Positions 48,298 to 63,206 of a stretch of 64,000 nucleotides of DNA are shown piece by piece (within the stretch, counting starts at the first letter, position 1; every line of letters begins with the position of its first letter). Made by a program: the position numbers and the translations under genes. Source of the DNA: Cryobacterium shii (GTDB taxonomy: Bacteria > Actinomycetota > Actinomycetes > Actinomycetales > Microbacteriaceae); assembly GCF_004402595.1 (NCBI RefSeq), contig NZ_SOFY01000077.1, positions 90,668-154,667 of the forward strand. Reading direction: 5' to 3'. The notes beneath the pieces were generated by a model. The model ran no database searches. It saw nothing but the letters and a program-made list of their open reading frames with translations, and had not been told where the DNA came from.

Positions 48298-48417
48298 CCC
48301 GACCCGCCCGGTCACCCCGCGTACACGTCTCCTTCACCCGGGCGCAAGGTCTCGGCCACCCGTGGCCACGAACGTTCTCGCTGAGGAAGATCGTCACACC
48401 GACGGTGCGTCCCGGTC

Positions 48418-49011: not shown

Positions 49012-49802
49012 TGCGGGGGCTGGGAGGCTGGTGGCTCTTCGTCGCCTTCCTGGCGCTGGCCGGTTGGCTGGTGTTCGGGTGGCTGGCGCACGGCCACGCG
49101 CCGGTGCCGGCCCGTGCAGCCCCCTCTCTGCGCCTCGAGGCTGCCGCCGGGGACACCGTGGCTCCCGCCGCCCCCACCCAGCCACCCCTGGCCGGGAGCG
49201 CCACTGCAGCATCCGTCGTCGCGTCCGTGTCATCGGATGATGCGTCACTCGTCTCGGTGCCGTGGGCGCAGGCCACGTCAGAGGCCACCGGCATCGGCTA
49301 CCGCGCGTTGCTGGGTTACGCGGGCGCCTCGCTCGCGATGGCGAGTCGGCAGCCCTCCTGCCACCTGGGCTGGACCACCCTCGCTGCCCTCGGTGCCGTC
49401 GAGTCCGGCCACGGCACCCACGCCGGGTCATCCGTCGACGCGGACGGAGTGGTGCGGCCAGGCATCTACGGTCCGCTTCTGGACGGCACGGCCCTGGACG
49501 CGTTCGCCGATACCGATGGCGGCCGGTGGGACGGGAACGCCCAGTGGGACAGGGCCGTCGGCCCGCTGCAGTTCATTCCCAGCACCTGGCAGCGGTGGGG
49601 CGCCGACGGCAACGGCGATGGCATCAACGACCCCCAGCAGGTCGACGATGCGGCCCTGGCCACGGGGCTCTACCTTTGCTACTCCGGCGATCTGTCGGCC
49701 GCCGGGACCTGGCAGTCCGCAATCTTTTCGTACAACCACCTGGAGTCATATGTCGACGCCGTGGCCGGCCGGGCAAACGCGTATGCGGCCCAGGTGGACT
49801 GA
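49011..49802 (+). CDS. Membrane-anchored lytic murein transglycosylase (MltB-like)
   Basis: 263 aa. One N-terminal membrane helix (WWLFVAFLALAGWLVFGWLA, residues 6-25) is followed by an Ala/Pro-rich linker. The catalytic domain has the Glu in LGAVESGHGTH, then RAVGPLQFIPSTWQRWGADG and NGDGINDPQQVDDAALATGL, as in MltB/SLT_2 proteins. It cleaves peptidoglycan glycan strands outside the cell. The start may be GTG 49005/49008 or ATG 49011; the upstream stop overlaps here. It lies immediately upstream of a kinase fragment and the phosphate locus. Confidence 0.88.
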   Translation: MRGLGGWWLFVAFLALAGWLVFGWLAHGHAPVPARAAPSLRLEAAAGDTVAPAAPTQPPLAGSATAASVVASVSSDDASLVSVPWAQATSEATGIGYRALLGYAGASLAMASRQPSCHLGWTTLAALGAVESGHGTHAGSSVDADGVVRPGIYGPLLDGTALDAFADTDGGRWDGNAQWDRAVGPLQFIPSTWQRWGADGNGDGINDPQQVDDAALATGLYLCYSGDLSAAGTWQSAIFSYNHLESYVDAVAGRANAYAAQVD

Positions 49803-49804
49803 GC

Positions 49805-49978
49805 GTGGGGGACGATGGGGCGGCGGGGCTGATCTCGGGCCGCTTCCGGCTGAATGAGCTCCTCGGCACGGGCGGCTCGGCTTCGGTCTTCTCCGCCGTG
49901 GACGTGACGCGGGGCTCGGTTGTGGCGCCGACACCGCCGCCGACGCCTGCACCGAGCCCGGCACCTGCTGCCACCTGA
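49805..49978 (+). pseudogene. Serine/threonine protein kinase remnant (N-terminus plus Pro-rich tail)
   Basis: 57 codons from GTG 49805. Residues 9-37 are a clear bacterial Hanks-kinase start (LISGRFRLNELLGTGGSASV, then FSAVDVTRG), including the Gly-rich ATP loop. The frame then changes directly to a Pro/Thr/Ala run (PTPPPTPAPSPAPAAT) and stops. The catalytic Lys, HRD and DFG regions are absent. It looks like an internal deletion that joined the kinase N-terminus to its low-complexity tail. No kinase activity is possible. A tiny expressed peptide cannot be excluded. Confidence 0.7.
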
Positions 49979-50037
49979 CCCCCGAACAGCCGCCACGGCC
50001 AAACCGACACGTCGCGTCCACATCTCGATTCGCAAAC

Positions 50038-50070
50038 GTTGGCCCAGTGTTCACCTGGGGTCCCAAGCAT
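50038..50070 (+). promoter_or_regulatory. Candidate PHO box upstream of pstC
   Basis: Three 11-nt direct-repeat units: GTTGGCCCAGT, GTTCACCTGGG, GTCCCAAGCAT. The middle unit carries the GTTCACC core of actinobacterial PhoP sites, the first matches it in 5 of 7 positions and the third is poor. It lies 65-97 nt before the pstC start. Phosphate-starvation control is therefore likely but unproven. The remaining gap (49979-50134) has no ORF. Confidence 0.45.
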
Positions 50071-50134
50071 GTGATTCGGAAGCGTGACTCCCGCGCACTT
50101 CCGCCCTTCCCGAGCCAGTTCCCCTAGGACAAAA

Positions 50135-51187
50135 ATGACTCTTGCGAGCCTCGTCGCCGCGCTGAACGAGCCGCCCGATACCGGTGCGCCCGTTCTGGAC
50201 CCGGCCAGCCCGGACTCCTCACCGCGCCGGCTCCTGGTCTCACGTCCCTCCCGTTCCGACTCGCTCTTCCGTTCGGTGGCGTTCAGCGCCGGCGGCATCA
50301 CCGTGGCGATCATGCTGGCCGTGGGCGTCTTCCTGTCGATCCGGGCCTCCGACGCTCTCGGCGTGGCCGGAGTGAACTTCCTCTTCGAACAGGACTGGTC
50401 TCCTGAGTCCAAGAAGTTCGGTATTGCTTCCGTTCTCTTCGGCACAATCACGATCGCCGTGATCGCCATGTGCGTTGCCGTCCCGCTGGCGCTCGGAACG
50501 GCGCTCCTAATCTCCGAGATCGCCCAAGGGCTTATGAAGAGCACCCTGGTCACCCTGGTCGACCTGATGGCCGCCGTGCCCAGCGTCGTCTTCGGCCTCT
50601 GGGGTGTCTTCTTCCTGCAGGCCAACGTGATCCCGGTCGCAACCTGGATCTCCCTGTATTTCGGTTGGATCCCGCTGTTCCGGGTCGCGGATGCCAGTGG
50701 GCACGCGCTCACGGAGGCTAGCGCGTTCACCTCCTCGGCCTTCATCGCCGGCATCGTGGTCGGCTTGATGGTGGTTCCGACCCAGACGTCGGTCATGCGC
50801 GAGGCCTTCTCTCAGGCGCCGATCGGCGAGCGCGAGGCCGCCTTCGCGCTCGGCTCGACCCGCTGGGGGATGATCCGTAGCGTCGTGCTGCCCTTCGGTC
50901 GCGGCGGCATCATCGGCGGCACCATGCTCGGCCTCGGCCGCGCACTCGGCGAAACCATCGCCGTGTACATGATCATCTCGCCCATTTTCACGATCAACTG
51001 GCAGGTGCTCAAAACCGGCACCAACTCCGTCTCCGCCCTGATCGCGCTGCGGTACGGCGAGTCGAGTTCGTTCGGCCTCTCGGCACTCATGGCCGCAGGC
51101 CTCGTGCTCTTCCTGATCACCCTGATCATCAACTTCACCGCGTCGTCCATCGTCGCGCGGTCCCGTTCCGGGGCAGAGAGCGACTGA
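50135..51187 (+). CDS. pstC: Phosphate ABC transporter permease PstC
   Basis: 350 aa, six or seven membrane helices (first at about 50-70). LVDLMAAVPSVVFGLWGVFF and the EAA loop IGEREAAFALGSTRWGMIRS are typical of PstC, and GLGRALGETIAVYMIIS is the shared PstA/PstC block. ATG 50135 has AGGA upstream; the frame to 50084 adds no conserved residues. First gene of the cluster. The order pstC-pstA-pstS is unusual, as the binding protein normally comes first. pstA overlaps the stop (TGATG). Confidence 0.93.
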   Translation: MTLASLVAALNEPPDTGAPVLDPASPDSSPRRLLVSRPSRSDSLFRSVAFSAGGITVAIMLAVGVFLSIRASDALGVAGVNFLFEQDWSPESKKFGIASVLFGTITIAVIAMCVAVPLALGTALLISEIAQGLMKSTLVTLVDLMAAVPSVVFGLWGVFFLQANVIPVATWISLYFGWIPLFRVADASGHALTEASAFTSSAFIAGIVVGLMVVPTQTSVMREAFSQAPIGEREAAFALGSTRWGMIRSVVLPFGRGGIIGGTMLGLGRALGETIAVYMIISPIFTINWQVLKTGTNSVSALIALRYGESSSFGLSALMAAGLVLFLITLIINFTASSIVARSRSGAESD

Positions 51188-52488
51188 TGACAATCACGCA
51201 GGCAACGACCATCACGCCCGCCGCGACCAGGTCGTACGCGATGTCCGGCCGTCCCGCTACGACGATCCCGGCTCCGGAGGGCGCCCCGATCGGGCCGCGT
51301 CGCCGGGTGCGTGGCGCCCGGCTCGACGATCGGTTCAACGTTATCGGCGCCGCCGCCGCCGGGGTCGCCGTCGCGGTGCTCCTCTTCGGCTGGGTCAGTC
51401 CGCTTTCCGGCGGTGTGGGCTGGGTGCTCGTGGCATACCTGGCGTTCCTGGGCTTCTACGCCCTGCTCGTGAGCTTCACGAGCGACGCACAGGAGGTCAA
51501 GGACCGGCTGATGTCCGTGCTCCTCTCCAGCGCCGGCGTGCTGCTCTTCGGCGCCCTGGTCTTCGTGGTGGCGTTCACTTTGGTGCGCGGGCAGGAAGCC
51601 CTGCCTCATCCCAACTTCTTCACCCAGAGCATGGAACTGGCCGGACCCCTCGACGGCCTCGACATGGGCGGCATCGTGCACGCGATCCTGGGCACGCTGA
51701 TGCAGATCTCGATGGCGCTGGCGATCACCATTCCTCTCGGCATCACGACCGCACTGTTCCTGAACGAGGTCGGCGGCCGGTTCGCGCGGTTCGTGCGCAC
51801 CATCTCGGATGCGATGACCGCGCTGCCGTCCATCGTGGCCGGCCTGTTCGTCTACTCGGCGATCATCGTGCTGATCACGCACCAGAGGTCAGGCTTCGCC
51901 GCGGCCATGGCCATCACAGTCATGATGCTCCCGATCGTCATCCGCGCCTCGGACATCGTGTTGCGCCTGGTTGCCGGCAACCTGCGGGAGGCCGCCTACG
52001 CCCTGGGGTCCACCCGCTGGGCCACGATCTGGCATGTCGTGTTGCCCACGGCGCGCCCAGGCCTGGCGACGGCCGTGATCCTGGGCACCGCACGCGGCAT
52101 CGGCGAGACCAGTCCAGTGCTGCTCACCTCCGGCGTCACAGCGGTGACCAACCTGAACCCGTTCGCCGGCCCGATGATCTCCCTCCCGCTGCAGGTCTTC
52201 GACTTCGTCAAATCGCCCGAGCCCACCATGATCGCCCGCGGGTTCGGCACGGCCGCCGTCTTGATCCTGCTGGTACTCACGCTCTTCGCCCTTGCCCGGG
52301 TTGTCGGAGGCAAGGGTCCCGGCCAGCTTTCCCCACGCCACGAACAGCGCGTCCTGTTGGCCTCCGGGCGCGACCTGCAGCGGATGAACGTGCGGAATGA
52401 CCTCGCCGCCGGGGATCCGAGTCCCCGTCCAGAATCCCTCCCGACCAGTTCACCCACCGACCTGACCACGAAGGAGACGTCCTCGTGA
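51187..52488 (+). CDS. pstA: Phosphate ABC transporter permease PstA
   Basis: 433 aa, longer than the usual 280-300. A non-conserved N-terminal region of about 50 residues and two extra membrane helices (about 53-100) precede the conserved core with ISDAMTALPSIVAGLFVYSA and the EAA loop LREAAYALGSTRWATIWHVV. A Ser/Pro-rich cytoplasmic tail of about 60 residues follows the last helix. ATG 51187 shares a base with the pstC stop. It forms the membrane channel with PstC. The extra helices and tail are oddities of this locus. Confidence 0.92.
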   Translation: MTITQATTITPAATRSYAMSGRPATTIPAPEGAPIGPRRRVRGARLDDRFNVIGAAAAGVAVAVLLFGWVSPLSGGVGWVLVAYLAFLGFYALLVSFTSDAQEVKDRLMSVLLSSAGVLLFGALVFVVAFTLVRGQEALPHPNFFTQSMELAGPLDGLDMGGIVHAILGTLMQISMALAITIPLGITTALFLNEVGGRFARFVRTISDAMTALPSIVAGLFVYSAIIVLITHQRSGFAAAMAITVMMLPIVIRASDIVLRLVAGNLREAAYALGSTRWATIWHVVLPTARPGLATAVILGTARGIGETSPVLLTSGVTAVTNLNPFAGPMISLPLQVFDFVKSPEPTMIARGFGTAAVLILLVLTLFALARVVGGKGPGQLSPRHEQRVLLASGRDLQRMNVRNDLAAGDPSPRPESLPTSSPTDLTTKETSS

Positions 52489-54134
52489 CGCCGCACACCC
52501 GACGGATTCGTTCCATCCGAACCCTATTCGCCCTGCTCGTTGTTGGTCTAAGCGTCTCCACAACGGTGCCGGCGCAGGCCCTGAGCTATGACCCGATCAC
52601 CGGCACCGGTTCGACGTGGTCTCAGAACGCTCTCGATCAGTGGCGCAAGAACGTAGCCACGAACTACGCGATGACCGTGAACTACTCCGGTGTCGGTTCG
52701 TCAGCGGGGCGCCGGGACTTCGTCGCGGGCAGCGTGGACTTCGCGGTCAGCGAGATCCCGTTCCAGACCGCCCCGGAGGACGGTTCGGCCCCAGAGGTGC
52801 CCGCTCGCGGGTACGCCTATATGCCCATCGTGGCCGGTGGTACCGCCTTCATGTACAACCTGAAAATCGGCGGCAAACGAGTCACCAACCTACGGCTCAG
52901 CGGCGAGGTCATCACCAAGATCTTCACCGGGGTCATCACGAAGTGGAACGACCCGGCCATCGCGACCGACAACCCTGGGCTGGCCATGCCGGACAAGGGA
53001 ATCGTCCCGGTCGTGCGCTCGGACGGTTCCGGCTCCACGGCGCAATTCACTCTCTGGATGTCCAAACAGCACCCGGCCCTCTGGAAAACGTTCTGCACCA
53101 AGGTCGGGCGCTCCGCTGACTGCGGCCTGACTTCACAGTTCCCCACCTTCGGCAGCGCCAAGGCACAGAGCGGATCCTCCGGCGTCGCCGGCTACGTGAG
53201 TCAGGACTACGGAGACGGCGCGATCACCTACGTCGAGTACTCGTATGCCAAGAACTCCGGTTTCCCGGTCGCCAAGGTGCTCAACGCGGCCGGCTACTAC
53301 GTCGAACCCACGGCGAACTCGGTGGCTGTGGCGCTCCTGAAAGCCGCCATCAACACCACACCCGGACCGACCTACCTCACCCAGATTCTGGACGGCGTTT
53401 ACAACAACGCCGACCCTCGCACCTACCCGCTCTCGAGTTACTCCTACATGATCGTGCCCACCGAGGTCGGCGGCGTCTTCACCGCGAAGAAGGGTTTGAC
53501 CCTGGGCGCCTTCGCCAACTACATGCTCTGCGAGGGACAGCAGCAGGCCGCAGCCCTGGGCTACTCCCCGTTGCCGATGAACCTCGTGCTGGCCGGCTTC
53601 GACCAGATCAAGCGAGTCCCGGGCGCCGATGTCAGCGGCGTTGACATCAACAAGTGCCACAACCCGACGTTCAATGCCGGCGACTCTCCGTCGAGCAACC
53701 TGCTGGCCACCACCGCCCTCCAACCAGCCGCCTGCGACAAGGTCGGGGCCAACCAGTGCACCACCGGCACGGCCGGGGCGTTGGCCGACACTGCCGTGTC
53801 GGGCAGCGGCACGGGTGGTGGCGCGGCCGGCTCAGCCTCCGCGAAGACTGCAGCGGCGGCGACCGGAGGAACGGCGATAGCAGCCGTCGCCCTCGCCAAT
53901 GCGGCCGCGCCCGTGTTCGACGAGAACGGCGCCCTCGTGTCAGCGGTCGGCACCGCTGCAACCGGCGTTGCCGGCACCGCAGTTGCCGCACCGTTCACCC
54001 TGGCCGAGACCGGCTGGGGCACTCAGCAGTCGGTCATGCTGCTCGCCGGCCTCCTGCTGCTGGCCGCCGCTGTGCTGCCGCCCGTGCTCGCCCGCCGGTT
54101 CACGCCCCGCGGCGCGAAAGCCGGCACCAAGTGA
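52485..54134 (+). CDS. pstS: PstS-family phosphate-binding protein with LAETG wall-sorting signal
   Basis: 549 aa. The signal peptide (about 1-32) ends in PAQALS and has no lipobox Cys. The PstS core is SYDPITGTGSTWSQNALDQW, VGSSAGRRDFVAGSVDFAVS, ITKIFTGVITKWNDPAI and VRSDGSGSTAQFTLW. An Ala/Gly/Thr-rich spacer follows, then LAETG (506-510), a hydrophobic helix and an Arg/Lys tail. That is the layout of a sortase substrate of the LAxTG type used by class E sortases. Normal PstS is a lipoprotein, so wall anchoring is unusual. GTG 52485 overlaps the pstA stop (GTGA). Ser/Gly residues expected to contact phosphate are present. Confidence 0.9.
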   Translation: MTPHTRRIRSIRTLFALLVVGLSVSTTVPAQALSYDPITGTGSTWSQNALDQWRKNVATNYAMTVNYSGVGSSAGRRDFVAGSVDFAVSEIPFQTAPEDGSAPEVPARGYAYMPIVAGGTAFMYNLKIGGKRVTNLRLSGEVITKIFTGVITKWNDPAIATDNPGLAMPDKGIVPVVRSDGSGSTAQFTLWMSKQHPALWKTFCTKVGRSADCGLTSQFPTFGSAKAQSGSSGVAGYVSQDYGDGAITYVEYSYAKNSGFPVAKVLNAAGYYVEPTANSVAVALLKAAINTTPGPTYLTQILDGVYNNADPRTYPLSSYSYMIVPTEVGGVFTAKKGLTLGAFANYMLCEGQQQAAALGYSPLPMNLVLAGFDQIKRVPGADVSGVDINKCHNPTFNAGDSPSSNLLATTALQPAACDKVGANQCTTGTAGALADTAVSGSGTGGGAAGSASAKTAAAATGGTAIAAVALANAAAPVFDENGALVSAVGTAATGVAGTAVAAPFTLAETGWGTQQSVMLLAGLLLLAAAVLPPVLARRFTPRGAKAGTK

Positions 54135-56803
54135 AGCGGCTCACGTTCGGCCCGAAAAACGCACTCTGGGCACGGGCCGGCGCCAGCGGAGTCGTGGTCG
54201 GCCTGATGGTGGGCGTCGGTGTCGCCGCGCTAGGCTCCCTCGCCCCCTCCGCGGCATCCGCTGACGCATCGACCGCTGTCACGGTCGCGTCGAGGGGCTT
54301 CGACCCCGATCTGGCAACCGCGCCCTTCCCTGATCTCAAGGTCACCGTCTCCCAGACCAAGGATCTCGTTTCCCAGGGCATCGTCGTGAACTGGAGCGGA
54401 GGAAAGAAATCCGTGCGACCAGATGGGAGCTCCGGAGGGGAGGACTTTCTCCAGATTGCGCAGTGCTGGGGAGACGACCCGACGGATTCCAGCCGTCCGG
54501 ATCGCACGACGTGTCAATACGGAGGATTCCCCGGCAAGGTCGCGTCCACCCGCGACAACGCCGTGAGCCAGGAGAACGTGGCCACGCAGGACGCGCAGTA
54601 CACGTCCCCGGCCAACGGATTCACGGTTCCCGCCTTCACCGCCATTCCCTACCGCGCATCAACGGGCGGGTCCATCGCCTCGGTGTTCGCGGACTCGGCC
54701 AACGTCCTCACGCATTACATCGTGGACCCCCTGACCGGCCTGGTGCAGAACGCCAATGGATCGCCGTCCGCGACCGGGGTGCCCCTGCCCGCCGGCGTGT
54801 CAGGCGTGGACCTGGCCACCAATGAGTTCTACACCCAGTACACGACGAATGAGGTGCCTTGGGCGGGCTCGAGCGACAGTGGCGACGGCTCCGTGAAATT
54901 CGAGGTGCAGACCGCCATGCAATCTCCGGGCCTCGGCTGCGGTATGCCCGTGACGGCCGCGAACGGCGCCGTCGCCGGCAAATCGTGCTGGCTCGTGGTC
55001 ATCCCGCGCGGAAAAAACGACGCGGGGGAGTCCTACATCACCAAGTCCGGGCTGCTGTGGGATTCCTGGAAGCACAGCGTGGCCGTCAAGCTTGATTTCA
55101 AGCCCATCGGCCAACGCTGCTCCATCGGCTCGGCCGAGAAGCAGCTCTCCGGGAGCGAACTCGTCGCCGCGGCGATCGGGTCGTGGCAGCCCAACCTGTG
55201 CGCCGGTGCCTCCGGCTCCTCGTTCGTGCTCAGCACCGGCAACGAGGAAGAGGCCTTGGCCGCGGCAAGCCTGACGGCGCCGAGCCCGCTGGCCCTCACT
55301 TCGCGTCCGCTGCAAACCGCTGGGACGGATCCGGTCGCCTATGCGCCGATAGCCCTCAGCGGCGTCGCGGTTTCGTTCTCCATCGACCGCCGCGTGAAAC
55401 CGGTGGGCGAAGTTCCTCAGGAATACAAGGACCGGAACACCGAGGCATTCACGTCACTGAACCTGACCCCGCGCCTGATCGCGAAGCTCCTCACGAACTC
55501 GTATCTGGACTCCCTGCCTTCCGGAGCGCCGACCACATCGGACTCCCTCAAATTCTTCGGCTACACCGACTCCGCACACCCGGGCTCGAACGCGCGCAAC
55601 CTCACGGTCGACCCCGATTTCCTGGCGGTCAACGACGAGGAATGGAGGTACCAGGACCTGACCGGGCCGTCCCTGGGAGACATGCTCCTCCCTTCCGGAC
55701 GATCCGACGAGGCCGAGCAACTGTGGCGGTACGTTCTCTCCGACCCGTCTGCCGTCGAATTCCTCAACGGAACGCCGGACGAGTGGGGGATGAAAGTCAA
55801 CCCCTGGTCATCCACCGACGCCACCATCAACCCGTCGGGGACGGTCCTGGCCCTTCCGCGCACGAATTTTCCAAAGGCTGATCCGATGGAGCGGCCCGCC
55901 GCCGCTGTCGGCGCCGGCACAACGGCGGTGAACCTCGTCACCTGGCGCCCCTACACCAGTGACTTCGAGAACGGCGCGTATCTCACCCTGCGCGGCGACG
56001 GGCTGGAGCTCGGGGACTGGAACCCCACAAGCGTTCCGCCGAAGTTCGGCAAGAGCGTGCGAAGCCTGGTGGGCAACCAGCGCGTGCTGAGCGTCACCAC
56101 CGCGGCCGCGGCCGCACGGTACCAGACGGTGACGGCGTCACTGCAGAACTCCGCGGGCAGCTTCGTGGCGCCGACGGCGGACTCCATGCTCGCGGCCTCC
56201 GCGGCGATGGTCCCCACCAGCGCCAACCCCAAGGTGCTCGAATATGACCCGGCGAACCCGAGCGCCAAGGCCGCGGCTACGGCGTACCCGATGACGATGC
56301 CGGTCTATGCCGCTCTGAATCCGCTGCAGACGGATGCCGCTCAGCGGGCGATCTACGCCAACCTGATCCGGTACGCGGTCGGGGCCGGCCAGATACCCGG
56401 CACGGAGATCGGGCAGCTGCCGCACGGCTACACCCCGCTCCCCAAGAGCTGGGTGGCCCAGGCGCTCGCCGCCGCGACCGTGATCGAGCAGGGCAGCAGC
56501 ACGATCGTCCCAACGACCGTGCCGGAGACCGCCCCGGACGCCTACATCCCGACCCCGTCAAGCGACGGAACGGCCGCGTCCCAGGCCGAGGGCGCACTGG
56601 TGATGGCCGACGCCGCGGTCGACCCGGCTGGCGCGGGCGCCACGGACGCCGCGGGCACCGTCACCGGCCCCCTGGTGGCAAGGCCGACGCCCGCGGACCC
56701 GGTCGTCGGGCTGGTGCGCGCGGCGGTCCCGGCCGGGCTGCTCTCCGGCCTGCTCGCCGCCGGCGGCGTCCCCCTGATTTCGCGCGTTCGGAGACGATCC
56801 TGA
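54131..56803 (+). CDS. Large secreted, membrane-anchored PstS-like protein
   Basis: 890 aa. Signal peptide (AGASGVVVGLMVGVGVAALG, then SAASA) and one C-terminal helix (PAGLLSGLLAAGGVPLISRV) followed by RRRS; no LPxTG-type motif. I see no catalytic signature. A central stretch VAVSFSIDRRVKPVGEVPQE, then LNLTPRLIAKLLTNSYLDSL, resembles the substrate-binding fold of PstS (LNLSGEVIAKIFTG), greatly expanded. Several Cys pairs suggest disulfides. GTG 54131 overlaps the pstS stop (GTGA), so it is co-translated with it. Presumably an extracellular accessory of phosphate binding; function is inferred from fold hint and context only. Confidence 0.65.
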   Translation: MKRLTFGPKNALWARAGASGVVVGLMVGVGVAALGSLAPSAASADASTAVTVASRGFDPDLATAPFPDLKVTVSQTKDLVSQGIVVNWSGGKKSVRPDGSSGGEDFLQIAQCWGDDPTDSSRPDRTTCQYGGFPGKVASTRDNAVSQENVATQDAQYTSPANGFTVPAFTAIPYRASTGGSIASVFADSANVLTHYIVDPLTGLVQNANGSPSATGVPLPAGVSGVDLATNEFYTQYTTNEVPWAGSSDSGDGSVKFEVQTAMQSPGLGCGMPVTAANGAVAGKSCWLVVIPRGKNDAGESYITKSGLLWDSWKHSVAVKLDFKPIGQRCSIGSAEKQLSGSELVAAAIGSWQPNLCAGASGSSFVLSTGNEEEALAAASLTAPSPLALTSRPLQTAGTDPVAYAPIALSGVAVSFSIDRRVKPVGEVPQEYKDRNTEAFTSLNLTPRLIAKLLTNSYLDSLPSGAPTTSDSLKFFGYTDSAHPGSNARNLTVDPDFLAVNDEEWRYQDLTGPSLGDMLLPSGRSDEAEQLWRYVLSDPSAVEFLNGTPDEWGMKVNPWSSTDATINPSGTVLALPRTNFPKADPMERPAAAVGAGTTAVNLVTWRPYTSDFENGAYLTLRGDGLELGDWNPTSVPPKFGKSVRSLVGNQRVLSVTTAAAAARYQTVTASLQNSAGSFVAPTADSMLAASAAMVPTSANPKVLEYDPANPSAKAAATAYPMTMPVYAALNPLQTDAAQRAIYANLIRYAVGAGQIPGTEIGQLPHGYTPLPKSWVAQALAAATVIEQGSSTIVPTTVPETAPDAYIPTPSSDGTAASQAEGALVMADAAVDPAGAGATDAAGTVTGPLVARPTPADPVVGLVRAAVPAGLLSGLLAAGGVPLISRVRRRS

Positions 56804-56916
56804 TGCGCGCCCGACTTGACGGTTCACACGGGGCTTCCGCCTCGAAGCGAAGCGCCGAGAAAGAGGGACCCGCCCGGGTTCGTCTCCTGCACCACACCCG
56901 AAAGGCACCCCAGTGA
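56803..56916 (+). CDS. Small ORF of 37 aa coupled to both neighbours (tentative)
   Basis: ATG 56803 shares its first base with the stop of the large PstS-like gene (TGATG), and its TGA (56914-56916) overlaps the GTG start at 56913 of the next gene. The peptide is basic (about nine Arg/Lys), begins MRARLDGSHGASASKRSAEK and has no membrane segment. It exactly fills the 109-nt gap, as expected for a coupling peptide. It could equally be chance in GC-rich DNA. No homology can be claimed. Confidence 0.3.
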   Translation: MRARLDGSHGASASKRSAEKEGPARVRLLHHTRKAPQ

Positions 56917-58004
56917 ACACCAAGAAGATGATTGCGCTCTGCGCGACTGTCGGCGTGGCCATCTCCGGTCTTGTCATCGCGACCCCGGCCAACGCCGAGC
57001 CCGTCTCCAACAGCTACTCCATTGTCGGTTCCGACACCCTCGAGGACGTTGTCAGCGCCCTGGTCAACGGTTCCTCCCTCTCGGGAGCGTCCGTTCGGAC
57101 GACGGCCAATGGGAACACCATCGGCTCCTTCGACGCGACCGGAACCCCCTACATCACGGCGAAAACCTCCGGCGTGCGTTTCGGCCGGCCGAATGGCTCG
57201 GGGGACGGCCGCACGGCCCTGCTCCGTTCCATTGACGGCGCCCCGTACACCTCCGGAACCGTCGGCGGGCCCGCGGGCGTCGTCATCACGGGCCAGGTCG
57301 ACATCGCGCGTTCGTCCGGATCAGGCACTGTCGATCCGGCAGGCAGCCTGATTCAGGTGCCCTTCGGTCGAGACGCGATCGCCTACGCGTACGACAGCGG
57401 TTCGACGGCGGCCGGCATCAACACCATCGACACTGCGACCATGAAGAGCCTGTACACCTGCAGCGTCACCACTCTGGGCGGTGTCACGGTCACGCCCGTC
57501 ATCCCGCAGGCCGGCTCCGGAACCCGCAAGGACTTCATGGCCAAGATCGGCGTCACGGACTCGACGCTGGGCTCCTGCGTCACCGTGGGTCAGGAGCATG
57601 ACGCCTCCAACCTCGGCCTGAACGCCGTCATGCCCATGTCGGTGTCTCGCTGGGTCGCCATGAACACCGGGGCGAGCTTCCCCAAGAAAAAGGACACCAC
57701 GGTTTTGGGCTCGCTTGTCGCCGGGGCCACCCCCGTCACGGGAACGGGTACCTCCATGGTTCCCAATGCGCCGTACTACGCCGACTCCCTGTGGGGACGC
57801 GACACGTACCTCGTCGTGCAGTACGCACGAGTCGACCCGTCGAACGCCGCGTACGACTCGACCCTGGCCGCAGTGCTCGATCCGACGAAGGGCCAGAGCC
57901 TGACCAACTCCCAGACGACTTTCGCCGCCAAGGCCGGTTCGCTGAAGAAGAAGTTCGGCATCCTGGCTCCCTCCACCACCACCGCCGTTCGCATCTCCAA
58001 GTGA
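56913..58004 (+). CDS. Secreted PstS-like substrate-binding protein
   Basis: 363 aa. The signal peptide (KKMIALCATVGVAISGLVIA, then TPANA) is cleaved before EPVSNSY; there is no lipobox and no C-terminal anchor, so it should be released. SYSIVGSDTLEDVVSALVNG resembles the phosphate-loop start of PstS-like proteins, and VTPVIPQAGSGTRKDFMAKI matches the second ligand segment (QxGSGTR). It is thus a divergent periplasmic-binding-fold protein, the third in this operon. GTG 56913 has GAAAGGCA upstream and overlaps the small ORF. Confidence 0.78.
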   Translation: MNTKKMIALCATVGVAISGLVIATPANAEPVSNSYSIVGSDTLEDVVSALVNGSSLSGASVRTTANGNTIGSFDATGTPYITAKTSGVRFGRPNGSGDGRTALLRSIDGAPYTSGTVGGPAGVVITGQVDIARSSGSGTVDPAGSLIQVPFGRDAIAYAYDSGSTAAGINTIDTATMKSLYTCSVTTLGGVTVTPVIPQAGSGTRKDFMAKIGVTDSTLGSCVTVGQEHDASNLGLNAVMPMSVSRWVAMNTGASFPKKKDTTVLGSLVAGATPVTGTGTSMVPNAPYYADSLWGRDTYLVVQYARVDPSNAAYDSTLAAVLDPTKGQSLTNSQTTFAAKAGSLKKKFGILAPSTTTAVRISK

Positions 58005-58035
58005 CCTACGTTCCAAGAACAGGACCTGTAACTAC

Positions 58036-58941
58036 ATGAAGCTCAATAAGAAGACGCGTTACGCCGCCGCCGGCGTCGTTTCCCTCGCCCTGGTTGCCGG
58101 GGCCTCGTCCGCGGCGAACGCCGCGCCGCAGATCAATGGTTCTGCCGCTCCCGTTTACATGTATGACACGAACGCGGCGCAGGTGCCGGATGGTCACGTC
58201 TGGGCATGGGATGACGAGCTCATCGGTTCGTCCACTCAGGGCGACATCAATGGCGAGTTCACTTGCCCGGCCGACAGCACGAACGTGTTCGCCTTCCTCG
58301 CCGCCCCCGGCAACGAGACGACTGTCCTCACTTGGAAGGCCTATGCGGGCCTCGGGTTCAATGGGGCCACGAAGAACGTGCTGAACCCCTTCCTCACACC
58401 GCTCTCACTCATCAACAACTCCCAGGGCGCGGCCAGGGCCGCCGGTGGTAACTACAGCCTCGGTCTCGCCTGCACGAAGTTTGACGGTGTCGCAGTGACA
58501 GCCGCTTTCTTCCGTTCGATCAGCGTCGTTCCGGTCACCGGCGCCTTCACGTTCCTGCCGCAGGCCGCTGTGGCGGCTCCGACGCCGACGCCCACTGCGA
58601 CGCCGACTGCGACGCCGACTGCGACGCCGACTGCGACGCCGACTGCGACGCCGACTGCGACGCCGATAGCGACGCCGACGCCGACTGCGACGCCGAAGCC
58701 GACTGCGACGCCGACGCCGGGAGTGACGTCAGGCTCCTCGGACAGCTTCACGCCTGGCTCGTCGGGGACCCTGACGTCTGGCTCGTCGGATCGCCTTGGA
58801 TCAACGACGAACCATGCTGACAAGGGGCTCGCGTCGACCGGAACGGCCAACACCCTGCCGTTCCTGGTCTCGGCCATGCTCGCCCTGGCGGCCGGAGCCG
58901 GCGTGATCATCGCGCGTCGTTTCCGCCGCGTAAAGAAGTAA
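58036..58941 (+). CDS. Pro/Thr-repeat surface protein with LASTG wall-sorting signal
   Basis: 301 aa. A signal peptide (residues 1-30, SSAANA) is followed by a globular part of about 150 residues ([20 protein letters not shown], two Cys) that I cannot assign. Then come a TPTA-repeat stalk (about 181-230), a Ser/Gly spacer, LASTG (265-269), a hydrophobic helix and the tail RRFRRVKK. This is a complete cell-wall sorting signal of LAxTG type. The stalk is a likely target for O-mannosylation by Pmt (inference). AGGACC precedes ATG 58036. A 15-bp perfect hairpin ends the transcript. Confidence 0.8.
58577..58718 (+). repeat. 12-bp in-gene tandem repeat coding for the PTAT stalk
   Basis: About nine units of a GCGACGCCGACT-type repeat, with a few substitutions (GCCGATAGC, GCCGAAGCC). 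The unit length is a multiple of three, so slippage changes stalk length without breaking the frame. Confidence 0.8.
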
Positions 58942-58957
58942 ACCGCACTCCGTACCA

Positions 58958-58997
58958 CGGAAGGCCACGGGAACGAATGTCGTCCCGTGGCCTTCCG
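58958..58997. terminator. Hairpin terminator after the LASTG protein gene
   Basis: Perfect 15-bp stem: CGGAAGGCCACGGGA (58958-58972) with TCCCGTGGCCTTCCG (58983-58997), loop 10 nt, beginning 17 nt after the stop. It has no U-tract. It splits the locus into two transcription units; the downstream genes have their own promoter. Confidence 0.7.
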
Positions 58998-59074
58998 GCA
59001 CGGGAGACGAGCGGGGACGGGAGCGTTTCCCCTTCGTTCGCCTCGCGTTCAGCACTCCGAAACCTCGAATGGAC

Positions 59075-59080
59075 TAACTT
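59075..59080 (+). promoter_or_regulatory. -10 element of the exoprotein-sortase-pstB unit
   Basis: TAACTT, 4 nt before GTG 59085, with no ribosome site. A near-leaderless start is the simplest reading. It follows the terminator at 58958-58997. Confidence 0.4.
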
Positions 59081-59084
59081 GACT

Positions 59085-59696
59085 GTGCTCACATCCGCTG
59101 CCGCCCGCCGCCTACCGGCCGTGACCCTGACTGCAATGTCCTTGTTCCTCGGGCTGGCTTGGCTGGCCGTATTTCCGGCAAGCGCCCAAGCGGCCACGGA
59201 TTCGCACGCGAGCAACAGCCACGACTTCCTCTACGTCAGCGGGCTCACCGTGCTCACCGAACCGACGATCGGGCCGGGCGGCGGGGACCTGGCCCTGGAG
59301 TTCACGATGAAGAACGTCAGCACTTCCCCGATCACCTCGAGCGTGCAGTTCCGGCTCGACAACGCGATCAACCAGCCCATCAAGACTCTCGACAAGGTCG
59401 AGGTCGCGAACCTCGCACCGGGGGAGACGCGCACCGTGACGGCGAACTTTAAAAGCGTCGGCCAGTGGACCTTCTATCGCGGCCATGTGACGATGACTCC
59501 GCCCGCGGACATTGACGGCACGGCCCTGTGGCCCTCGACCCGCGACTCGTTCACGCTCCTGCTGCCGTGGTTCCTCCTGGCGGTGCTCGTGCTCCTGGCC
59601 GCCCTCGTTCTGGCGGTGCGCCAGTTGCTTCGGCTGCGCCGGCTGGAACGACCGCTGCCCGGACTCGTACCCGGATACGGGACCGTCACATCGTGA
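59085..59696 (+). CDS. Signal-peptide-bearing, C-terminally membrane-anchored exoprotein
   Basis: 203 aa. Signal peptide (about 1-38, ends PASAQAA), a beta-rich extracellular domain (LVVYSGLTVLT-like start, then LALEFTMKNVSTSPITSSVQ and LAPGETRTVTANFKSVGQWT, an Ig/CARDB-like pattern) and one membrane helix (LLLPWFLLAVLVLLAALVLA) with a short basic tail. I do not recognise a named family. It overlaps the sortase-like gene (GTGA), a strong hint that the two proteins work together at the cell surface. The start is chosen from the -10 spacing; the frame is open to 58977. Confidence 0.7.
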   Translation: MLTSAAARRLPAVTLTAMSLFLGLAWLAVFPASAQAATDSHASNSHDFLYVSGLTVLTEPTIGPGGGDLALEFTMKNVSTSPITSSVQFRLDNAINQPIKTLDKVEVANLAPGETRTVTANFKSVGQWTFYRGHVTMTPPADIDGTALWPSTRDSFTLLLPWFLLAVLVLLAALVLAVRQLLRLRRLERPLPGLVPGYGTVTS

Positions 59697-60625
59697 CGAT
59701 CACCACAGCCCCCCGGCGGCTGAAGCTGCCAACGCCGCCGCGGCGGATGCCCCTGCCTCCACGCGCACCCGTGGTGTTGAGCGTCCGAGACCAGGCCGTT
59801 CGCACCGCGCTCACGATCGTTGCCGTGCTCATCTTCGGCTTTCTCGCCCACCTCACGATTTTCGGGCAGGTGCAGCACTTCGTCTCCCAGCAGCAGCTGA
59901 CGAACTCCCTGCGGGCCGAACTCGCGCAGGGCACGGCGCCGGTCAGTGAGGGTACCGTGGACCGGGTTCTGCTGGCGGCGGGAGCCCCGGTGGCGCTGAT
60001 CGACATCCCCGCGATCGGGGTGCACGAGGTGGTCGTCGAAGGAACCGACTCCGGCACCCTGCGGGCGGGACCGGGCCACCGCCGCGATACCGTACTGCCG
60101 GGCCAGGCGGGCTACAGCGTCATCATGGGCCGCGCAGCCGCCTATGGCGGACCTTTCGCCCGGTTGCAGGAGTTGCGACCGGGGCAGCAGTTCACGGTGA
60201 TCACCGGCCAGGGCCGTCAGAAATTCTCCGTGCTCGGCGTTCGGTATGCGGGCGACCCGATGCCGGCTCCGCTCGGCGCGGGAAAGAGCCGCCTCGTCCT
60301 TGAGACGGCTCGCGGCCCGGCGTTTGTGCCGAGCGGGATCGCCCGGGTGGATGCTGAGCTCGTGTCGGAGACGAAACCCGCCGGCACGCGAGCGACCACG
60401 TTTGGGACCCTGCCTGCCGTCGACCGGGAGCTCGCCACCGACACCGAAACGGTCTGGGCGCTGGTGTTCGCCCTGCAGTTCCTGCTGCTGGTCGAGCTCG
60501 CCGCAGTGTGGGCCTACCGACGTGTCGGCCTCCGCAAGACCTGGACGGTTTTCCTTCCCGTCGTCACCGTGGGCGGCCTGTTCGTGGCCGACCAGGTGGT
60601 GCGCCTGCTTCCGAACCTGCTGTAG
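59693..60625 (+). CDS. Sortase-fold protein lacking the catalytic Cys and His (pseudo-sortase)
   Basis: 310 aa. N-terminal helix (about 38-58), then a sortase-like domain. LIDIPAIGVHEVVVEGTDSG and GPGHRRDTVLPGQAGYSVIM followed by GRAAAYGGPF are the normal class E/F landmarks, but the catalytic His of the TGH/AGH motif is Arg147. The TLxTC motif reads LVLETARG, with Ala206 at the Cys position. The protein contains no Cys at all. Arg218 remains. Two additional C-terminal helices (about 253-277 and 283-306) follow. It cannot transpeptidate by the known mechanism, so binding or scaffolding is more likely. Overlaps the upstream exoprotein gene (GTGA); pstB starts 5 nt after its stop. Confidence 0.8.
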   Translation: MTITTAPRRLKLPTPPRRMPLPPRAPVVLSVRDQAVRTALTIVAVLIFGFLAHLTIFGQVQHFVSQQQLTNSLRAELAQGTAPVSEGTVDRVLLAAGAPVALIDIPAIGVHEVVVEGTDSGTLRAGPGHRRDTVLPGQAGYSVIMGRAAAYGGPFARLQELRPGQQFTVITGQGRQKFSVLGVRYAGDPMPAPLGAGKSRLVLETARGPAFVPSGIARVDAELVSETKPAGTRATTFGTLPAVDRELATDTETVWALVFALQFLLLVELAAVWAYRRVGLRKTWTVFLPVVTVGGLFVADQVVRLLPNLL

Positions 60626-60630
60626 AAAAG

Positions 60631-61632
60631 ATGGAGTCCATGAACGAGGAACTGACCAATGATGACCGCACGCAGGTGCTGCCGCTACCGACATCGCCAC
60701 GGCAGCGGGACGGCCGGCTGCGCCCGCCGGCCCGCTCCGCCACCGACGCCGCGCCGACCGGGACGAGTCGCCTGTCCGTGCCGTGGCGTAAACGCCCGGC
60801 GGGCAAGGACCTGTCCCTGAACGCTTCCGGCCCTTCGGCCGTGCGGGATCCTGGCCCGTTGGCCACTCTGGAGGGCCGAAATGTGTCGGCCTGGTTCGGC
60901 GAACGCCAGGTGCTCGACCGGGTCAGCCTCACCATGCCCGCCGGAATCATCACCTCGCTGATCGGCCCCTCCGGCTGCGGCAAATCGACGTTCCTGCGCA
61001 TCCTGAACCGTATGCACGAGCTGGTGCCCTCGGCGAGCCTGGCCGGCGAGGTGCTCCTCGACGGCGAGGACATCTACGACCCCGAACGCAAGCTGGTTGA
61101 CGCCCGCAAGCACATCGGGATGGTGTTCCAGAAGCCCAACCCGTTCCCGGCAATGTCGATCTACGACAACGTCGTGGCCGGACTGACCCTCACCGGGCGG
61201 CGTGCCTCCGTTGACGAGAAGGACTTCCTCGTCGAGAGCTGCCTTACCAAAGCCGGCCTGTGGAAGGAGGTGCGCGACCGGCTGCGCGCCCCGGGCAGTG
61301 GCCTTTCGGGCGGGCAGCAGCAGCGCCTCTGCATTGCCCGCTCCCTCGCCGTCACCCCGCGGATCCTCCTGATGGACGAGCCATGCTCGGCCCTCGATCC
61401 CACCTCAACCCGCGTCATTGAGGAGACGATGCTCGAGCTGGCCCGCGAGGTCACCATCGTCATCGTGACCCACAACATGCAGCAGGCACAGCGGGTCTCC
61501 CAGAACTGCGCGTTTTTCCTCGCTGCCCAGGGGGCTCCCGGCGGGATCGTCGAGCACGGGCCCACCGACGCGATGTTTGGCAACCCGATCGACAGCCGCA
61601 CGGCCGATTACGTCAACGGCCGGTTCGGGTAG
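60631..61632 (+). CDS. pstB: Phosphate ABC transporter ATP-binding protein PstB
   Basis: 333 aa. The ATPase domain begins at about residue 75. Walker A is GPSGCGKSTF. VFQKPNPFPAMSIYDNVVAG is the PstB-specific segment. The signature is LSGGQQQRL, Walker B ILLMDEPCSALDP and the switch VTHNMQQAQ. PstB is normally about 255 aa; the 75-residue Arg/Pro/Ser-rich N-terminal extension is unusual. No phoU follows. Start ATG 60631 or 60640. It energises PstC/PstA encoded 9 kb upstream, from which it is separated by the secreted and sortase-like genes. Confidence 0.92.
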   Translation: MESMNEELTNDDRTQVLPLPTSPRQRDGRLRPPARSATDAAPTGTSRLSVPWRKRPAGKDLSLNASGPSAVRDPGPLATLEGRNVSAWFGERQVLDRVSLTMPAGIITSLIGPSGCGKSTFLRILNRMHELVPSASLAGEVLLDGEDIYDPERKLVDARKHIGMVFQKPNPFPAMSIYDNVVAGLTLTGRRASVDEKDFLVESCLTKAGLWKEVRDRLRAPGSGLSGGQQQRLCIARSLAVTPRILLMDEPCSALDPTSTRVIEETMLELAREVTIVIVTHNMQQAQRVSQNCAFFLAAQGAPGGIVEHGPTDAMFGNPIDSRTADYVNGRFG

Positions 61633-61659
61633 TCCGGTATCAAGGCCCGGTGGGCGCAC

Positions 61660-61665
61660 TAGAAT
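61660..61665 (+). promoter_or_regulatory. -10 element of the CYTH-CHAD gene
   Basis: TAGAAT, identical to the metG hexamer, 5 nt before ATG 61671. No ribosome site. Confidence 0.5.
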
Positions 61666-61670
61666 TGATC

Positions 61671-63206
61671 ATGACTTCCGATGGCTTTGCCGAGATCGAG
61701 CGCAAATTCGACGTCAATGCGGCCACCGTGCTGCCCGCCCTGCACGACCTCCCGGGCGTCACCCACGTCGAGCCGCCGGTCGAGCATGACCTCGACGCCC
61801 TGTACTACGACACCGACGACCTTGCCCTCGCGAACCGGCGGATGACGCTGCGCCGTCGCACCGGGGGAGACGACGCCGGCTGGCACCTCAAGTTGCCCGT
61901 GTCCGTCGACGAGCGCCGCGAAATGCGTGAGCCGCTGGGCAGCGACCCGGCGCAAATCCCGGAGCCTATTCTCAACCTGGTCAGGGTCTTCCTGCGTGGA
62001 CGGGTGCTGGTGCCGGTGGTGCGCCTGCACACCCGCCGCGTCGTGCACCTCCTGGTCGGCAAGAACGAGCGGGTGCTCGCCGAGGTCTGTGACGACGAAG
62101 TGGAGGCCGAGCGGTTCGGCACCGGGGCCGGTGGTGCAGATGCGTTCCAGCAGAGCTGGCGCGAGTGGGAAGTCGAGCTCGTCAACGGCTCGAGGGCGCT
62201 GTTGGACGCAGCCCAGGAGCGGTTGTCTTCGGTCGGCGTCGAGCCGGCGACGAGCCCGTCCAAGCTCGCCCGGGCCCTGGGCGACCGGGCCCCCGTGCTC
62301 GGGGCGCCCGTCTCGTTCCGGCCGACCCGCAAGAGTTCGACCCGAACCGTGCTGCTCGCCTACCTGCACGAACAGGTCGAAGCCATCAGCGCGCAGGATG
62401 CTCGGGTGCGTGAGAACGACGTCGAGGCGGTGCACCGGATGCGGGTGGCCACCCGGCGCCTGCGCTCAGCCCTGGCCACCTACCGCGACTTCTTGGACAC
62501 CGATGTCACGGCGCCGCTGCGCGTCGAACTGCGCTGGATCGCCGGGGTCCTCGGCGGGGCCAGGGACGCGCAGGTGATCCAGCAGCGCCTTGCGCACCGG
62601 CTGGCCGAGGAGCCGGAGAACCTCGTGGCCGGACCGGTGGTACAGCGCGTCGACGGCCACTTCGGCACGGTCATTCGTGCCGCCCGGGGCGATGCCCTGG
62701 CGGCGCTGAACTCCGACCGGTACTTCCGGCTGCTCGACAGCCTGGACGCGCTGCTGGCGTCACCGCCGCTGCTCCCGGACGCCGCTAAGCGCGCGGACCG
62801 GGTCATCCCCACGCTGATCCGGGCCGATTGGAAGAGGCTGCGGGCATCCGTGCGCACCGCTCGACTGACCCCCGCCGGTACCGCCCGGGACGCGGCGTTG
62901 CACGAGGCGCGGAAGCGGGCCAAGCGGCTGCGGTACGCGGCCGAGACGGCCGCCCCGCTGCGTCGCCGCCGCGCCACGCGGCTGGTGGCCGCCGCACGTC
63001 AGGTGCAGGACACGCTCGGCGACCACCAGGACAGCGTCGTCGCCCGCGGCGTGCTACTCAACCTCGGCATGGCCGCATTCCTGCACAGCGAGAACGCGTT
63101 CACCTATGGGCGGCTGCACGCCGTGGAACAGACCGGTGCCGCAGCGACCGAGGCGCGGTTCTTCCGTTCCTGGGCGGACTTCCCCTCCGCCTCCCTGAAA
63201 AAGTAG
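61671..63206 (+). CDS. CYTH-CHAD domain protein (polyphosphate-associated)
   Basis: 511 aa. The CYTH domain (1-200) has the ExExK signature EIERK at residues 8-12 and the RMTLRRRTGGDDAGWHLKLP strand pair of the triphosphate tunnel. The CHAD domain (about 220-505) has the conserved basic helices VHRMRVATRRLRSALATYRD and LHEARKRAKRLRYAAE. CYTH domains hydrolyse inorganic or organic triphosphates, and CHAD domains bind polyphosphate (family knowledge). Its position directly after pstB links it to phosphate storage. Intact; no membrane segments. Confidence 0.92.
   Translation: MTSDGFAEIERKFDVNAATVLPALHDLPGVTHVEPPVEHDLDALYYDTDDLALANRRMTLRRRTGGDDAGWHLKLPVSVDERREMREPLGSDPAQIPEPILNLVRVFLRGRVLVPVVRLHTRRVVHLLVGKNERVLAEVCDDEVEAERFGTGAGGADAFQQSWREWEVELVNGSRALLDAAQERLSSVGVEPATSPSKLARALGDRAPVLGAPVSFRPTRKSSTRTVLLAYLHEQVEAISAQDARVRENDVEAVHRMRVATRRLRSALATYRDFLDTDVTAPLRVELRWIAGVLGGARDAQVIQQRLAHRLAEEPENLVAGPVVQRVDGHFGTVIRAARGDALAALNSDRYFRLLDSLDALLASPPLLPDAAKRADRVIPTLIRADWKRLRASVRTARLTPAGTARDAALHEARKRAKRLRYAAETAAPLRRRRATRLVAAARQVQDTLGDHQDSVVARGVLLNLGMAAFLHSENAFTYGRLHAVEQTGAAATEARFFRSWADFPSASLKK

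Follow-up and report, generated by a model that had tools for sequence, protein, structure and literature searches.

A second Pst-type locus of Cryobacterium shii predicted to join phosphate import with surface proteins and a sortase homologue lacking catalytic residues

Gene Content of the Locus

The DNA analyzed here, referred to as the window, is a 64,000-nucleotide stretch from Cryobacterium shii (contig NZ_SOFY01000077.1, positions 90,668 to 154,667). Between positions 50084 and 61632 of its + strand, nine genes form a cluster of about 12 kb, the locus proper. These are pstC, pstA, and pstS, for the permeases and binding protein of a predicted phosphate importer; S890 and S363, named after their lengths in residues; X and Z, for a stalked surface protein and a beta-rich transmembrane (TM) protein; a sortase homologue that we call the pseudo-sortase; and the ATPase gene pstB. 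A tenth gene, encoding a CYTH-CHAD protein, extends the run to 63206 on the same strand, and neighboring genes overlap by up to 4 bp or lie up to 109 bp apart (in order from pstC, −1, −4, −4, 109, 31, 35, −4, 5, and 17 bp). The source genome (G000) measures 3.49 Mb, with the locus on its contig 87. All genes named in the initial annotation of the window proved to be on this strand and in their proposed places; the start of Z is more likely at 59085. Loci and genomes of relatives are cited below by L and G numbers.

The Pst Core and the Canonical Pst System

PstC, PstA, and PstS exceed the NCBIfam phosphate equivalog cut-offs: pstC (50084..51187, with an alternative codon-based start at 50135) reaches 239.9 bits with TIGR02138 (cut-off 196.45), pstA (51187..52488) 207.0 bits with TIGR00974 (193.45), and pstS (52485..54134) 219.6 bits with TIGR00975 (205). 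PstB (60631..61632, start approximate) carries an N-terminal extension of about 80 residues and matches its best model, TIGR00972, from residue 80 on, with 326.7 bits against a cut-off of 343.2, just below it (E 8.2e-98). The phosphate-binding loop RSDGSG is kept in PstS, and Glu stands in the place of E. coli Asp56 in 17/17 aligned PstS. Elsewhere in the genome, contig 85 bears a separate pstS-pstC-pstA-pstB cluster whose PstS is a lipoprotein (LSSC) with no C-terminal TM segment. The secreted PstS of the locus has no Cys in its first 40 residues, hence no lipobox, and it continues through a low-complexity linker to a hydrophobic C-terminal TM segment at residues 517–535 (hydropathy and alignment). 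By these profile matches, 50084–61632 is the genome's second Pst locus and a predicted phosphate importer. It resembles the high-affinity PstSCAB importer in its core, and differs from it in lacking a lipoprotein PstS and phoU and in having S890, S363, the pseudo-sortase, and surface proteins inserted between the permeases and the ATPase. The missing phoU, an oddity according to the initial annotation, is indeed not in the locus, and it says little, since phoU stands apart from the canonical pstC as well, some 10 kb away on contig 85.

The Pseudo-Sortase and the PstS Tail

The pseudo-sortase (59693..60625) has a TM segment followed by a sortase fold and two C-terminal TM segments (alignment and hydropathy). 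Pfam Sortase (PF04203) recognizes it at 45.7 bits against a cut-off of 26.6, with only positions 1–83 of the 125-position profile covered, and the Protein Data Bank (PDB) profile 4d70 matches at E 8.6e-13. The best NCBIfam model is that of the class E sortases (NF033747). It shares an N-terminal TM segment with these enzymes, and is set apart from them by its score (57.3 bits, cut-off 160), by its two C-terminal hydrophobic segments, and by the loss of His and Cys, the two catalytic residues whose places could be assigned. The place of the His is taken by Arg in 86/86 copies, and by Arg (19) or Lys (1) in 20 further ones. That of the Cys is taken by Ala, Ser, Gly, Thr, or Val, with Cys in none of the 106 aligned copies; the window's own copy has Arg and Ala. 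In this alignment, two true sortases encoded by G000 retain both residues. Of the public records examined, most name the pseudo-sortase "sortase," and S890 "hypothetical" or "PBP domain."

The initial annotation saw a wall-sorting signal in PstS, and its LAETG was considered as such. This had to be given up as the motif is not conserved: the Thr of LPxTG, at position 4, is retained in only 5 of 69 locus PstS (WxL-fused copies, described below, excluded), and a membrane tether is predicted in place of wall sorting. What is conserved is a segment like PFT-L-[AP]-[DE]-x-G-W-G, found directly before the TM segment in 69/69, with A/P at position 2 in 62, D/E at position 3 in 49, and Gly at position 5 in 46. 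In the window it reads PFTLAETGWG (53991..54020, + strand). In the divergent group L032–L036, no such segment is evident in the alignment. The prediction for PstS is thus a membrane tether preceded by a degenerate sorting-like motif. The presence of a degenerate sorting-like tail next to a degenerate sortase suggests docking without cleavage, the boldest step of our reading, and the pseudo-sortase is likely a non-catalytic scaffold that grips the juxtamembrane segment of PstS without cutting it.

Alternatively, the protein might have kept transpeptidase activity through an unusual catalytic site and anchor PstS or X. The kept sortase fold and the LASTG sorting signal of the window's X would fit such an enzyme. 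We consider it very unlikely, given the replaced residues in all 106 aligned copies, the restriction of the LASTG-type end of X to three of 71 loci (the window, L107, and L108), and the presence in the genome of three other Pfam-Sortase proteins, two of which were examined and have both His and Cys intact.

Two Further Binding-Type Proteins

S890 (54131..56803) consists of a beta-rich N-terminal domain, a domain (residues 332–793) predicted by fold search to have the PstS fold, and a C-terminal TM segment. TIGR00975 matches it weakly (35.1 bits, residues 665–784), and profile comparison with PstS gives a match over 103 columns only. Before its helix S890 has PSGRSD, not RxDGSGT, and it apparently lacks the canonical phosphate loop. 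S363 (56913..58004) is secreted, with no C-terminal TM segment and no Pfam or NCBIfam match. Its conserved motifs GSDT, RPNGSG, ARSS, and GSGTR make it likely to be a PstS-like binding protein. L225 (G173) carries three consecutive S363 copies ahead of its pseudo-sortase.

With PstS accompanied by two such divergent binding-type proteins, the ligand might be a phosphate ester, a wall-polymer fragment, or another oxyanion, S363 and S890 serving as specificity modules. The Glu at the Asp56 place and the PSGRSD of S890 lend themselves to that idea. We judge it improbable, as PstS, PstC, and PstA pass the phosphate equivalog cut-offs and RSDGSG is kept in PstS.

Surface Proteins and the Wall Anchor

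The window's X (58036..58941) carries a TP-rich stalk and ends in LASTG (TIGR01167, 15.9 bits, equal to the cut-off). Its orthologues in most relatives end in a WxL domain and are followed by a further gene, Y. PF13731 (WxL) matches 7/35 members of X in relatives at E ≤ 0.1 (best 5.1e-7), L029 reaching 26.2 bits against a cut-off of 25, and several are labeled "WxL domain-containing" in public records. In alignments of this domain the first W-x-L is kept and the last motif is LTLTL/V, so that two Trp-x-Leu motifs are not present. PF06030 (DUF916, WxLIP_PGBD) matches Y in 14/15 relatives at E ≤ 0.01, above the cut-off in L022 and L028 and below it in L035 and L036. The solved WxLIP entries 9i25 and 9i1y match the Y profile at E 0.07–0.08 only. 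By these comparisons, the window's X is orthologous to the WxL protein of most relatives, and Y there is its WxL-interacting partner (WxLIP). The window's X itself has no WxL match, and no WxL structure is among the fold matches listed for X, which excludes nothing.

WxL/csc gene clusters occur in Lactobacillales and Bacillales (PMC10599100, PMC9772566, and PMC1534035). The likeness to them lies in the WxL domain of the relatives' X, in Y as a WxL-interacting protein with a C-terminal TM segment, and in the extra WxL-type protein of some loci. The Actinomycetes version differs in being tied to an ABC importer and in its degenerate second W-x-L motif, and the window has neither a WxL domain nor a full WxL-interacting protein. 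In L109, L110, and L113 a second WxL-type gene stands between Y and Z, as in the two-WxL clusters of Firmicutes.

The distribution of WxL and Y was followed in 71 loci with a complete span (the window and 70 named loci), the remaining 10 of 81 having been dropped because their fetched stretch was without S363 or pseudo-sortase. With profiles from genus-level loci and cut-offs of our own setting (WxL above 40 bits, Y above 200), 65/71 hold both and 6/71 neither. The pseudo-sortase tree was built by a quick method with SH-aLRT as its only support measure; on it, this pattern takes three changes. Supported branches force each of them, and joint losses are the simplest interpretation. Such joint presence and absence is evolutionary evidence of a working pair, independent of Firmicutes biochemistry, although three changes are too few for significance (sign test, p 0.25). 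In the clade of the window, L107, and L108, X has the stalk and LASTG where other loci have the WxL domain; in Leucobacter (L131 and L161) and in L152 it has other repeats, Ig-like by eye.

Z (59085..59696) resembles the second half of Y, matching positions 183–318 of the Y profile at E 1.7e-14. Its codon-based start at 59085 is more likely than 58977, as the latter falls within an inverted repeat between X and Z (58959..58996), which folds as RNA into a hairpin of −28.5 kcal/mol and has no T-run. When the Y profile was run for a WxLIP elsewhere in G000, it matched Z only. A full WxLIP outside the locus in the window's genome was thereby rejected as a candidate; full Y was found in G012, G004, and G024.

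Among 20 divergent loci, described with the co-occurrence data below, six match the Y profile alone; in five of these, L219 being the exception, the gene before Y ends in a WxL-like manner by eye. In the eight profile-negative loci readable past S363 no WxL-like end was seen, and LASTG is present in L210. Eight Microbacterium loci have a frame directly 3' of pstB (L129, L156, L159, L163, L168, L170, L176, and L178) in which PstS is fused to a WxL domain scoring 69–87 bits with our own WxL profile. Of three fusions scanned with Pfam, all gave PBP_like_2 and one gave WxL (E 0.011). By their domain matches, these fusions unite phosphate-binding-type and wall-binding-type modules in one protein.

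Conservation and Co-Occurrence

In 60 related genomes, the pseudo-sortase was found at 17 clear places (41–100% identity) in 16 genomes, the window's included: 15 of the 37 of the genus, and one from another family. Weaker matches (E 2.7e-12 or worse) resemble ordinary sortases and were not inspected individually. The initial annotation had staked its proposal on conservation of the gene order, and the order pstC-pstA-pstS-S890-S363-X-(Y)-(Z)-pseudosortase-pstB holds at 17/17 places; in G005 pstC lies just beyond the fetched stretch and was placed by a separate search. A scan of GTDB genomes yielded 439 relatives; the best 80 of these serve here as named loci. Among them, the window's pseudo-sortase comes nearest to those of Cryobacterium sp. 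M96 (95% identity) and Cryobacterium cheniae, and the best 80 also include Herbiconiux, Agromyces, Microbacterium, Leucobacter, Subtercola, Frigoribacterium, Propionicicella, and Propionicimonas. Where the fetched stretch permits, they keep a near-identical gene set, with exceptions that include L107, L108, L131, L152, and L161, which lack Y, and L140, in which the pstB frame is broken.

Co-occurrence was examined in 393 Actinomycetes genomes that are at least 90% complete. Of these, 48 (about one in eight) have the pseudo-sortase at E ≤ 1e-39, and 54 at 1e-20; the additional six, with E between 1e-20 and 1e-24, were excluded as possible true sortases (unchecked). S363 (E ≤ 1e-8) is likewise in 48, and 45 genomes have both, less than 7 kb apart in 41, 16 kb apart in one, and on different contigs in three. 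The N-terminal domain of S890 was found in 29 genomes, all 29 with S363 and 27 with the pseudo-sortase. Of the 20 divergent loci drawn from the 48 genomes, 18 have pstS, S890, and the pseudo-sortase as a group, and 17 have S363. L222 has neither S890 nor S363, and L224 is a short contig end. The order differs in several of these loci, where pstB comes first or S363 follows the pseudo-sortase. The initial description of an importer locus centered on surface proteins and a sortase-like protein is thus upheld, as a conserved gene set whose members co-occur across the Actinomycetes. One genome (G003) holds two divergent copies of the whole system (L034 and L036), and a pseudo-sortase with pstB of actinobacterial type (L167) occurs on a contig labeled Stenotrophomonas maltophilia, which is probably a contamination.

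The resemblance of WxL-type domains to pilins raises the question of whether X and its partners form a surface adhesin or fiber system that does no more than share a transcript with a Pst operon. This is quite unlikely, in that S363 and S890 track the pseudo-sortase across the 393 genomes, the PstS-WxL fusions combine both functions in one protein, and some lineages without WxL parts still keep the core of Pst, S890, and S363.

Candidate PHO Boxes

GTTCACC is the consensus of PHO-type units. Using this consensus, sites were scored as four 11-nt phased GTTCACC-like units (maximum 28). Two + strand sites reach 20/28: one in the promoter at 50016..50059, with GTTGGCC-CAGT and GTTCACC-TGGG as third and fourth units, and an inner one at 59025..59068, 5' of Z-pseudosortase-pstB. 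From 40 Markov simulations, one would expect 0.05 sites of this score in 64 kb, counting both strands; the two found are both in the locus. By eye, the promoter block aligns among Cryobacterium loci. These candidate boxes suggest control by phosphate starvation. The third-best site (48299–48342, score 19) lies just past a MetI-like permease gene, with about 0.4 expected by chance. A two-unit score was rejected as too weak in the window, where 12/14 is reached and equaled in 2/126 background stretches. The canonical pst operon is preceded by a two-unit site of 13/14; in Streptomyces, the PHO boxes of pstS consist of two 11-nt repeats (PMC7866108). Scans for sigma-70 promoters and terminators gave nothing informative, and Rfam and transfer RNA scans had no matches.

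Flanking Genes

The CYTH-CHAD gene (61650..63206; CHAD, 206.8 bits) directly follows pstB in only 4/72 named loci with at least 3 kb past pstB, all of them Cryobacterium, and it was rejected as a component. This leaves the initial proposal of polyphosphate handling as a downstream part of the system unsupported. In L022 (2647–6082), the locus scanned, pstB is followed by a gene of the low-molecular-weight phosphatase/arsenate-reductase type and by ArsA; L023 looks similar.

Upstream, at 49799–49978, a piece of about 37 residues from the beginning of a Ser/Thr kinase gene (49799..49909, + strand) runs straight into a proline-rich tail. This remnant is 59% identical over 37 residues to the kinase of L032, the sole kinase scanned, in which Pfam finds Pkinase and PASTA. 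A gene related to that kinase lies upstream in 9/12 main Cryobacterium loci and downstream in L032–L034, six named loci of Propionibacteriaceae type, L206, and L225. No kinase match was seen in Microbacterium loci, where the upstream flank is often outside the fetched stretch. Such neighbors might mean that the locus is less an importer than a phosphate-sensing surface complex, in which Pst-fold proteins signal the phosphate of the wall to a PASTA-type Ser/Thr kinase next to them; S890, resembling a binding protein minus its loop, would suit that role. The retention of pstB and permease genes in the loci read, the reduction of the window's kinase to a remnant, and the Microbacterium result argue otherwise, and we regard a sensing complex as unlikely.

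A Model for the Locus

The reading we favor, with a probability of roughly 0.55, is that the locus encodes a second Pst-type importer that holds phosphate-binding proteins in the cell wall and passes the ligand to PstCA. In the wall, S363 would catch phosphate, or a ligand that carries phosphate. PstS, membrane-tethered on its long linker, would then take the ligand from S363 and dock on PstCA, with PstB powering import. S890, with its PstS fold and apparently missing binding loop, would likely be a partner with a structural or a regulatory role. X would fasten the assembly to peptidoglycan, through the WxL domain and WxLIP (Y) in most relatives and through sortase-attached LASTG in the window, and the pseudo-sortase would hold the juxtamembrane segment of PstS as a scaffold, with no cutting. 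We infer that phosphate is the ligand, that it would be delivered across the wall, and that it would regulate the locus.

Several observations pull the other way. The loss of the binding loop in S890 is taken from motif order, not from superposition. The sequence link between S363 and PstS is weak (a match to the 4q8r PDB profile at E 0.0083 and a further one at E 0.03), and hhalign gives no usable match between the two (probability 0.2%). Three genomes have S363 with no pseudo-sortase found, three show the reverse, and 19 of the 48 S363 genomes lack a match to the S890 N-terminal domain, some of which (e.g., L217) do have S890 by the full-length profile. The WxL and WxLIP profiles both match in three of the 20 divergent loci, WxLIP alone in six, and neither in 11, which speaks against a single universal wall anchor. 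PHO scores in the promoters of Cryobacterium relatives are mostly 16–19, a range that the local background reaches in 5–26% of 500-bp stretches; in G014, G018, and G003 they are 14–16, and only G034 (21) and G057 (22) score high.

More tentatively, and with odds below even, the pseudo-sortase and PstS could be seen as a docking pair. PstS would be a dead substrate, with the tail of a sorting signal (L-[AP]-[DE]-x-G, TM segment, and basic end) that has mostly lost its Thr, and a dead sortase whose groove is kept would clamp this membrane-anchored protein, and perhaps S890, beside PstCA. The clamp would be permanent but non-covalent and would form the handover point of a phosphate relay across the envelope, in which the wall anchor (WxL with WxLIP, LASTG, or other repeats) could be swapped.

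In Isd-type haem relays, wall-bound binding proteins feed a membrane ABC importer; their folds, ligand, and anchoring are unlike those of this locus, and the likeness is one of shared idea. Pst, WxL, and the sortase fold are known parts. In searches of the open-licence literature, covering titles and abstract openings, no Pst-WxL cluster or Cys-less actinobacterial sortase was found described, nor was the conserved combination, the dead sortase, the PstS-fold S890, or nutrient capture by phosphate-catching proteins displayed in the wall. With the pseudo-sortase and S890 assigned to a common system, the former would no longer be mistaken, as is now likely, for an active sortase. If our reading is true, Gram-positive bacteria would possess a phosphate capture system that spans the wall, similar in concept to the haem wall relays, and a conserved family of non-catalytic sortases would gain a function.

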